Shown in pieces: positions 19,085-49,496 of a stretch of 64,000 nt of DNA (position 1 is the stretch's first letter; the number at the start of each line of letters is the position of its first letter). Source of the stretch: Natronococcus sp. A-GB1. Lineage in GTDB: Archaea > Halobacteriota > Halobacteria > Halobacteriales > Natrialbaceae. The position numbers and the translations under genes were made by a program. The notes beneath the pieces are model-generated. The model was not told the DNA's origin, did no database searches, and saw only the letters and a list, made by a program, of their open reading frames with translations. The stretch spans positions 248,001-312,000 of the forward strand of contig NZ_JARUKW010000001.1 in the NCBI RefSeq assembly GCF_029688845.1, written 5' to 3'.

Positions 19085-19158
19085 GGGCCAATAGCTCAAT
19101 TAGGTTGAGCGCCACTCTGATAAGGTGGAGGCTCTCGGTTCAAATCCGAGTTGGCCCA
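19085..19158 (+). tRNA. tRNA-Ile (anticodon GAT)
   Basis: The acceptor GGGCCAA pairs with TTGGCCC, the D-arm is GCTC/GAGC, the anticodon stem is CCACT/GGTGG with loop CTGATAA (anticodon GAT), and the T-arm is CTCGG-TTCAAAT-CCGAG. The discriminator is A. A TATA-like CACTTAACC lies about 35 bp upstream. The gene's 3' end is duplicated further on at 19276. Confidence 0.97.
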
Positions 19159-19275
19159 CTGGTTTTCCGGCGAACAACACCGTGAGCCGGAAATCCGTGG
19201 CGAAGCTCGGACTTGAAGTAGAGAAGTCTCATGCCCGACAGCCGAGCGTAGCGAGGCGAGCAGGACTGTCTTCGT

Positions 19276-19300
19276 TCGGTTCAAATCCGAGTTGGCGCAC
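19276..19300 (+). repeat. Duplicate of the tRNA-Ile 3' end (attachment-site-like)
   Basis: Twenty-five bases repeat the T-arm and acceptor end of tRNA-Ile with one mismatch, 118 bp beyond the gene. An inverted, slightly diverged copy of the same T-arm lies between them at 19204-19217. A duplicated tRNA 3' end is the classic trace of site-specific integration, but the enclosed segment is too short to be an element, so it may be a scar. Confidence 0.65.
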
Positions 19301-19942
19301 TTCTTGCTCTGAACTGATTTCCGTAAACGATGAGCACGTGCTGCTTCGAGATTTGAGACGCTGTCGTGCTGGCCGCTGATTCGCGGACGGGAGCGAAATG
19401 AGTTCGAGTTGACTACGGTCTGACCGTGTCCGTCGTTTGTAGCGACCGAGTTCGCGAGTGGCCCTACCGAACCGTTGTGAAGACATGACCCCGAACTTCC
19501 GGCCGGTATCCGCTCGGACGGACAGCTCGAGTCACTCCGTTCTACGGACAGCGTCTTGAGGTGGTGACCATCGGTTGATCGAGTGGCCCGCCCGTGAGGA
19601 ACTGTTGGTGGTCGTGCCGGTAGAATATAGCTTCTTCTTCAATTCGTTTCGTCCATCGTTGCAGCGGTTCGAGTCGATTCGCCGTGATACGTCCATGTTC
19701 CAGTCTGGACGGTTAACAGTCAATTAAGCGGTTTTCGAGGATCGGTTTGGAACCGAATCCGTCCGCGACCGTGGGTGTCATCGATCTTCGGCCATCCCGA
19801 TTCCCGCCGAGTGATCTTTACCGACGCTATAATAAACAGCCAGAATAGATTTTCCCTGACTGTGATGTTGCCAGTCCGTAAACACCGACTGCTACCGATC
19901 GGCCGAACCGGTGTCGCCGATCCGGAGCTGAGGTGACATTTC
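19301..19942. other. 642 bp without an intact gene
   Basis: No complete gene was found between the tRNA-Ile 3'-end copy and the AsnB-like gene. A 56-codon minus-strand fragment (19542-19712) looks protein-like, and a TATA-like CTATAATAAA lies at 19827-19836, about 107 bp before the AsnB-like start. The composition is more AT-rich than the neighbouring genes. Confidence 0.7.
19542..19712 (-). pseudogene. Possible gene fragment
   Basis: A 56-codon frame without an early start codon reads RLEPLQRWTKRIEEEAIFYR and then HDHQQFLTGGPLDQPMV before a stop. Its composition is more like a real protein than the other frames here, and a stop codon immediately precedes it. It could be the C-terminal remnant of an otherwise deleted gene. 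The family is not recognised. Confidence 0.25.
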
Positions 19943-48976: not shown

Positions 48977-49100
48977 ACACCCACGATATTCGGTCGCTCC
49001 TCAAATAACTACGCTCCGACGTCGGTCGGCCGAAGCGAGGTGCGAGCGAACACCGAAACACACATTCCCGCACGGTGGCTACCCTCGAGCGCACTTCTGT

Positions 49101-49184
49101 GCGAGGGTAGCCAAGCAGGCCAACGGCGGTGGGCTTAAGACCCGCTCCCGTAGGGGTCCGAGGGTTCAAATCCCTTCCCTCGCA
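49101..49184 (+). tRNA. tRNA-Leu (anticodon TAA)
   Basis: The acceptor GCGAGGG pairs with CCCTCGC, the anticodon stem is GTGGG/CCCGC with loop CTTAAGA (anticodon TAA), the variable arm is long as in class II tRNAs, and the T-arm includes GGTTCAAAT. The discriminator is A. A tandem tail of tRNA-derived repeats lies immediately behind it. Confidence 0.96.
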
Positions 49185-49201
49185 TGCTACCGCGAACATC
49201 C

Positions 49202-49383
49202 GTGAGCGGTAGCTGCGGGACGGAGGGATTTGAACTACGGAACGAGGGAGCGAAGCGACCGAAGTTCAGGTGGTTCAAATCCCTTCCCTCGCGTTCTAGA
49301 ACACGTGAACGGTAGCTGCGAAACGAAGGATTTGAATCAGGGAGTGGAGCGAAACGACCGCAATTCGAATCTCTTCTCTCGAG
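49202..49383 (+). repeat. Tandem tail of tRNA-Leu-derived repeats
   Basis: Two diverged units with a 103-bp period start with GTGA(G/A)CGGTAGCTGCG. Each contains an inverted T-arm copy (GGATTTGAA), a GAGCGAA segment, and a direct copy of the T-arm and 3' end. In the first unit the direct copy matches 21 bp of the tRNA exactly (49272-49292). The second unit is more decayed. There is no gene in this stretch. Confidence 0.7.
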
Positions 49384-49496
49384 CCGCCTCGAGCGCACAC
49401 GGGAGCCACCTTCCGAGACGAAGATCCCAAATCGGTCTGGCTGAGGCGACACTCGCCGATCGGACGGCAGTCGGTTCCGTCTCGAATCGGTGGCTG

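Follow-up and report, generated by a model that had tools for sequence, protein, structure and literature searches.

Hairpin-built tails with copies of the tRNA 3' end behind haloarchaeal tRNA genes: candidate arrays of very small non-coding integration cassettes

The window analysed here is a stretch of 64,000 nucleotides from Natronococcus sp. A-GB1 (assembly GCF_029688845.1, contig NZ_JARUKW010000001.1, positions 248,001 to 312,000). It holds a tRNA-Leu(TAA) gene and a tRNA-Ile(GAT) gene, each followed by a short tail that contains a copy of the 3' end of the respective tRNA. The features of the Leu locus, with the evidence for each, are as follows.

49100..49185, plus strand: tRNA-Leu(TAA), the anchoring gene (ARAGORN; Rfam tRNA)
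49186..49213, plus strand: hairpin A of Leu unit 1, made of an 8-bp stem, tandem G.A, 2 bp and a small loop (fold; covariation)
49223..49235, plus strand: anti-T, the inverted T-arm copy of Leu unit 1 (inverted-repeat pairs; Markov test)
49236..49270, plus strand: hairpin B of Leu unit 1, with the tip GAGCGAAGCGA at 49248-49258 (fold; motif statistics)
49272..49292, plus strand: direct copy of the tRNA-Leu 3' end from T-loop to acceptor 3' strand, 21 nt exact (repeat family; Markov test)
49294..49383, plus strand: Leu unit 2, decayed, with a hairpin A remnant, anti-T, hairpin B and direct copy (repeat search)

The first-pass annotation had described the Leu tail as diverged units that each carry an inverted T-arm, a GAGCGAAgCGA-like block and a direct copy, the first of them exact over 21 bp, and both the repeats and Markov sampling bear this out. 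The 21-nt exact repeat of the tRNA-Leu 3' end, GGTTCAAATCCCTTCCCTCGC, lies at 49272-49292, 109 nt from the original. Hereby, 0 of 100 samples from a first-order Markov model of the same flank reach the direct copy and 1% reach the inverted copy. The two units measure about 103-109 bp; unit 1 is intact, while unit 2, 103 nt on, is visibly decayed, with its anti-T at about 49326-49336, GAGCGAAACGA at 49347-49357 and its direct copy at about 49362-49383. In unit 1 the anti-T at 49223-49235 pairs with the direct copy at 49272-49292, and GAGCGAAGCGA forms the hairpin tip between both. The GAGCGAAgCGA-like block is thus present, but it forms the loop at the apex of a hairpin with closing tandem G.A pairs and is no motif of its own. 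The layout originally proposed was likewise found, yet it had missed the first hairpin, which stands directly 3' of the tRNA in each unit. A BLAST comparison of the Leu tail with plasmids and phages gave zero matches. The minus strand contains a 105-aa open frame (window 49135-49452) that spans tRNA-Leu and tail and reads GFEPS-like peptides; such a frame is a likely source of spurious gene calls.

The tail behind tRNA-Ile(GAT) consists of one unit.

19085..19159, plus strand: tRNA-Ile(GAT) (ARAGORN)
19163..19193, plus strand: hairpin A behind tRNA-Ile (fold)
19206..19275, plus strand: imperfect anti-T (CTCGGACTTGAA) and hairpin B behind tRNA-Ile (fold; Markov test)
19276..19301, plus strand: direct copy of the tRNA-Ile 3' end, 96% over 26 nt (repeat comparison)

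The claim that this tail shares the module design of the Leu tail holds for the direct copy (96% over 26 nt); the inverted part is weak for Ile alone, as the inverted arm (GGACTTGAA) is imperfect, is reached in 10% of Markov samples and is absent from the inverted-repeat listing. As for the design in general, the genome-wide survey removes the doubt, because it finds own-specific copies at 26 of 42 tRNA genes.

For that survey, which had been suggested along with the original observation, we compared the Natronococcus genome holding the window (G000) with two congeners (G003 and G006). An Rfam tRNA search gives 44 tRNA matches in G000, 42 of which were scored, with tRNAs that have another tRNA less than 330 bp away left out; a copy of the own 3' end was counted at a score of at least 13 within 250 bp of the tRNA gene. 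Such a copy stands at 26/42 scored tRNA genes in G000, 25/42 in G006 and 27/43 in G003, and the own end scores above 12 ends taken from other tRNAs in 26/26, 23/25 and 27/27 of these cases, respectively. In G000, 4% of trials with the ends of other tRNAs reach a score of 13 on these tails, and upstream controls across the three congeners gave 3/41, 1/15 and 2/15. An inverted arm with a score of at least 9 is found in 21, 18 and 19 genes of the three congeners, compared to 15-22% for the arms of other tRNAs; taken alone, the inverted arm is short and partly common to different tRNAs.

Beyond the genus, a strict unit pattern matches 109 of the 145 haloarchaeal genomes sampled, with 0 matches for a reversed control pattern. 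In a sample of the phylum it occurs in 39/53 genomes of the same order versus 0/241 genomes from its other classes. A named scan of 84,980 species agrees with this distribution in that, among the matches listed, nearly all are haloarchaeal; the three other names among them (Methanomassiliicoccales, Desulfobacterales and Aquibacillus) are probably chance matches. The figure of 227/317 pattern-search loci is not a prevalence, since these loci were selected for having units. Of 31 pattern matches examined (30 loci), 29 lie 32-300 bp behind a tRNA, 22 of them in the matched orientation and 7 with a near-palindrome read on the other strand; the remaining two stand behind a displaced tRNA-Arg end without the gene. 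All 8 pattern places in the own genome are tied to a tRNA end as well. As all 31 examined matches adjoin a tRNA end, the units are tied to tRNA ends. In viral contigs the strict pattern gave a single match, in a stretch without tRNA that looks protein-coding, and hence no true unit; a relaxed pattern was too loose to be used there. The design therefore recurs behind most tRNA genes of the three congeners and in haloarchaea at large, and the Leu and Ile tails are not two unrelated chance repeats among tail-less tRNA genes. The tails are confirmed as real and far more general than two genes, and the genome survey and the class-wide pattern support the original proposal that the tails have a common design, differ in sequence according to their tRNA and form by a shared mechanism.

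Comparison of orthologous tails reveals gain, loss and reordering of units. At tRNA-Val(TAC) a 105-bp tRNA-proximal unit is present in G000 and absent in G003, the rest aligning at 292/315 positions from the first tail base of G003. At tRNA-Lys(CTT) a 121-bp proximal unit of G006, absent in G000, aligns over 116 bp with the tRNA-Lys(TTT) tail of the same genome, and the 3' ends of the two tRNAs are identical. Between G000 and G003 the order of two segments behind tRNA-Arg(GCG), of 100 and 108 bp (95/100 and 104/108 identical), is reversed, and so is, between G000 and G006, that of a 152-bp unit and a 61-bp segment behind tRNA-Asn(GTT); the 61-bp segment shows no recognisable core copy at its inner end. 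Behind tRNA-Leu(TAA), unit 2 at one locus (L045) resembles, by eye, unit 1 of relatives. In other orthologous tails, namely those of Ser(TGA), Ser(CGA), Glu(TTC) and Val(GAC), the type of hairpin B is swapped with hairpin A and inverted arm kept, and tRNA-Leu(TAA) of relatives likewise carries another hairpin B type. At Ser(TGA) the first unit is kept and the second, distal one differs in G006. Orthologous tRNAs also lose the tail. Cassette-like behaviour of the units, with gain, loss, reordering and transfer from gene to gene, is thus well supported.

The same junction between tRNA and tail receives integrase elements. Two G000 genes without a nearby copy, those of tRNA-Arg(TCG) and tRNA-Arg(CCG), have tails that were displaced by integrated elements. 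Behind tRNA-Arg(TCG) foreign sequence follows and the contig ends 5 kb on; another G000 contig carries a tyrosine-type integrase gene, then the 13-base core CCTGCAGCGCCCA and then the intact Arg(TCG) tail, and in G003 the homologous tail (96% match) sits directly at the tRNA. Behind tRNA-Arg(CCG) of a further genome (G007) about 35 kb lie between tRNA and intact tail, with an integrase gene beside the tRNA-end copy, an arrangement that G000 repeats, split over two contigs. The integrases of the Arg(CCG) element in G007 and the Arg(TCG) element in G000 are 44% identical. At locus L110 a further integrase element probably entered between tRNA and tail, its putative integrase scoring under the Pfam cut-off; at L116 core and tail are present, with no integrase within the 3 kb examined. 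The own ends of the integrase elements examined are without hairpin A and inverted arm. At the ends of the tRNA-Arg(TCG) element (L088, region of 17783, and L090, region of 6590) the sequences CCGTAACAG and CTGTTACGG flank the core, and these are possibly the inverted arm sites of the attP of one element. The sole pattern place of the own genome without a tRNA gene (C10) was considered as an attachment unit of an integrase element and rejected, as both element ends show the displaced tRNA-Arg(TCG) tail.

Each unit follows one order: hairpin A directly 3' of the tRNA, the inverted T-arm (T-loop and 3' T-stem), hairpin B, and at the far side the direct repeat of the tRNA 3' end (T-loop to tRNA end). 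In hairpin A a stem is followed by tandem G.A and two more base pairs, which carry a small loop; the second part of the unit forms one long hairpin, because inverted arm and direct copy pair. With the Asp and Thr units left out, the units of the own genome measure 74-197 bp, are built of hairpins and contain no open reading frames, nor do the small units hold an integrase gene or replicon between the repeats. In a rough classification of 200 distinct units, all lying no more than 450 bp from a tRNA, hairpin B falls into few families common to many tRNAs, classes I and II each occurring at 20 tRNA species and class III at 12, with 38 units unclassed. No consensus fold emerged from an alignment of 23 own units (MAFFT and RNAalifold; Arg(CCT), Glu(CTC) and Pro(TGG) left out), given their differing B types and lengths of hairpin A.

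Several variants occur beside this plan. In many T-copies of the Ala, Lys, Phe, Pro and Arg(CCG) tails a single additional base sits precisely at the boundary of TTCA and AATC (TTCACAATC, TTCATAATC); it would either lie outside the helix when the hairpin folds or be a scar of the junction. The Pro(TGG) tail of G000 (L067) contains a palindromic insert with CTATAG-like ends inside hairpin B, and a similar insert of the CTATAG type lies behind the tRNA-Leu tail of G033 (L038); the insert resembles a small inverted-repeat transposon. Segments of another kind, about 75-100 bp long, are seen behind Arg(GCG) (L075, L324, L296), Arg(CCT) (L031, L309) and Arg(CCG) (L277); they end in a tRNA-end copy of only 12-15 bases and have their hairpins seemingly on the opposite strand. 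Behind tRNA-Leu(TAG) of G006 (L299) a whole tRNA-Leu copy stands in tandem before the tail, at a place where the assembly contains N.

We propose, with roughly even chances of being right, that the tails represent arrays of tiny integration cassettes that carry no coding sequence and have tRNA genes as their anchors. Hairpin A would open a cassette, followed by the inverted T-arm, hairpin B and, as recombination core, the copied tRNA 3' end; recombination between this core and the tRNA end would insert the cassette directly 3' of the tRNA, leaving the tRNA-end copy at the far side. On the simplest account the units would then be minimal non-autonomous cassettes that share site, core and position next to the tRNA with the integrase elements, a reading suggested by their layout of tRNA, body and tRNA-end copy, which is the outcome of insertion at a tRNA end. 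The proposal is also favoured by the closer match of proximal than of distal copies to the tRNA, by the restriction of the G.A hairpin tips to the tRNA strand and by the covariation of hairpin A, with the counts given below. Against it stands that the units are no simple deletion versions of the integrase elements, whose ends are without hairpin A and anti-T. Moreover, unequal homologous recombination between the copies of about 20 bp could explain gain, loss and order by duplication and deletion. The distal change at Ser(TGA) under a kept proximal unit counts against strict entry at the tRNA, and the replacement of hairpin B only differs from what simple cassette insertion predicts. The missing core copy of the 61-bp Asn(GTT) segment, the lack of a true unit in viral contigs under the strict pattern and the departure from the integron R-box are further points against the proposal.

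Alternatively, the tails may act as RNA: transcribed as a 3' trailer of the tRNA, their hairpins would serve in termination, 3' processing or stability, and the T-arm copies would be kept since the RNA must fold as, or mimic, a T-arm. The hairpins indeed keep to the tRNA strand. At its tip, hairpin B reads GA, two pairs, loop, two pairs and GA on the tRNA strand of 116/200 units and on the other strand of 0/200, and RNA and DNA parameters alike give the better fold to the tRNA strand rather than to its complement in 173/195 cases. Hairpin A also covaries: in the tRNA-Leu(TAA) tails 95.5% of cells pair, with both-sided changes in 7/10 pairs and a covariation score of 0.493 versus 0.265 for shuffled data, a count that leans to hairpin-keeping tails, as the 20 sequences (19 loci) were chosen as alignable from 30 loci. 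T-runs, furthermore, are often found 3' of tRNA and copies. Other properties of the hairpins speak against an RNA role. Among the 116 tips, 95 have loops of three bases, and 67 are GNA, whereas 2 are GNRA and none is UNCG; GNA loops are known from DNA mini-hairpins such as GCGNAGC, whose stability is exceptionally high. The wobble bias is weaker in the helices of hairpin A (G.T 16 and A.C 9 beside 738 Watson-Crick pairs) than in the acceptor stems of the same tRNA set (11 and 0 beside 479), a modest difference (Fisher p 0.03) by which hairpin A leans to DNA. Mismatches in the B region outside type III (T.G and G.T 70, C.A and A.C 43) give no strong RNA sign either way, because part of them sit in the anti-T flank. 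Rfam, searched with the tails at eight loci, yields only tRNA above the gathering score. In addition, about 40% of tRNA genes have no tail nearby, orthologous tRNAs do without one, and the Arg(CCG) tail is intact although an element of about 35 kb parts it from its tRNA, an insertion that may be recent. All in all, we regard an RNA function as a rather unlikely explanation of the tails.

The tails could also be debris, i.e. the remains of integrated viruses or plasmids that were multiplied by unequal homologous recombination and slippage, with template-switch correction maintaining the palindromes. Integrative elements at haloarchaeal tRNA 3' ends are known, as PMC3119063 describes, and occur here at the very same junction. 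Distal copies decay: 76 tails without a further tRNA body inside 450 bp have at least two copies, and it is the proximal copy that matches the tRNA better in 45 of them and the distal one in 8, with 23 ties (sign test, 2e-7). Independent decay, however, is unlike a single class-wide architecture with few B families at up to 20 tRNA species; the ends of the elements lack this architecture, and the covariation of hairpin A argues that the hairpins are maintained. Debris is consequently an unlikely origin in our view. IS200/IS605- or REP-like elements are not known to copy flanking sequence when they insert. A dispersed hairpin transposon of this type, such as the haloarchaeal PATEs, that hits the tRNA T-loop by chance is highly improbable: palindromes near the ends and the lack of a transposase gene are shared with PATEs (PMC3119063), and T-loop TTCAA could be a target, but the units are not dispersed in the genome, being tied to tRNA ends in every match examined, and each of them carries the 3' end of its own tRNA.

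Returning to integration cassettes, we infer that a tyrosine recombinase moves the units and, more weakly and by analogy, that the substrate may be single-stranded and folded, with the inverted T-arm and the T-copy forming the core duplex and hairpin B the terminal structure. Bending a double-stranded circle of about 100 bp into a synapse is difficult, and a folded single strand would explain how units of this size recombine at all. Phage CTX has an attP that acts as a folded single strand, with two inverted core copies tens of nucleotides apart and a dif core. The units resemble it in that two inverted core copies fold into one duplex core, but their core is a tRNA T-arm, and the strict pattern found no virus with such a site. 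Compared to tRNA-integrated elements of the SNJ2 type and their relatives, target, junction behind the tRNA and far-side copy of the tRNA 3' end are all the same; the haloarchaeal units differ in being about 60-200 bp long, integrase-free and equipped with an inverted T-arm and hairpins.

The folded-strand route is proposed because the units resemble integron attC sites, which, according to PMC2727003, act as folded single strands with paired inverted cores, strand-specific interruptions and a terminal hairpin. Judged by the same source, the likeness extends to two antiparallel cores, an outer duplex, an unpaired spacer, the variable terminal hairpin and strand specificity of the folded site and, at the level of arrays, to units parted by copies of the recombination site, reordering and apparent entry at one end. 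Unlike in integrons, the tails are anchored at a tRNA 3' end, the core differs per tRNA and the units are gene-free. The integron R-box has the consensus RYYYAAC / GTTRRRY. In a comparison by eye, the units do not match it, having TTTGAAC / GTTCAAA or TTCGAAC / GTTCGAA instead. An integron-like system without cassette genes, in which T-arms take the place of attI and folded strands that of attC, and one or few tyrosine recombinases would shuffle the units behind most tRNA genes class-wide, can be suggested only tentatively.

In the available parts of a review of archaeal tyrosine recombinases (PMC8371274) and of the Haloquadratum genome paper (PMC3119063), copies of tRNA ends appear only as marks of integrated elements. 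A search of the open full-text literature on tRNA-associated repeats and integration in archaea, with subscription papers and preprints outside its range, gave no description of such tails. For genome annotation, the tails can give rise to spurious frames over tRNA genes and to false attachment sites. More generally, tRNA genes are classical landing sites of mobile elements, for reasons that have been debated for decades. Minimal, gene-free units that turn over behind tRNA genes across a whole class offer a natural laboratory for this question, and if the folded-strand reading is true, single-strand recombination of the integron type would gain a second, archaeal form on a tRNA platform.
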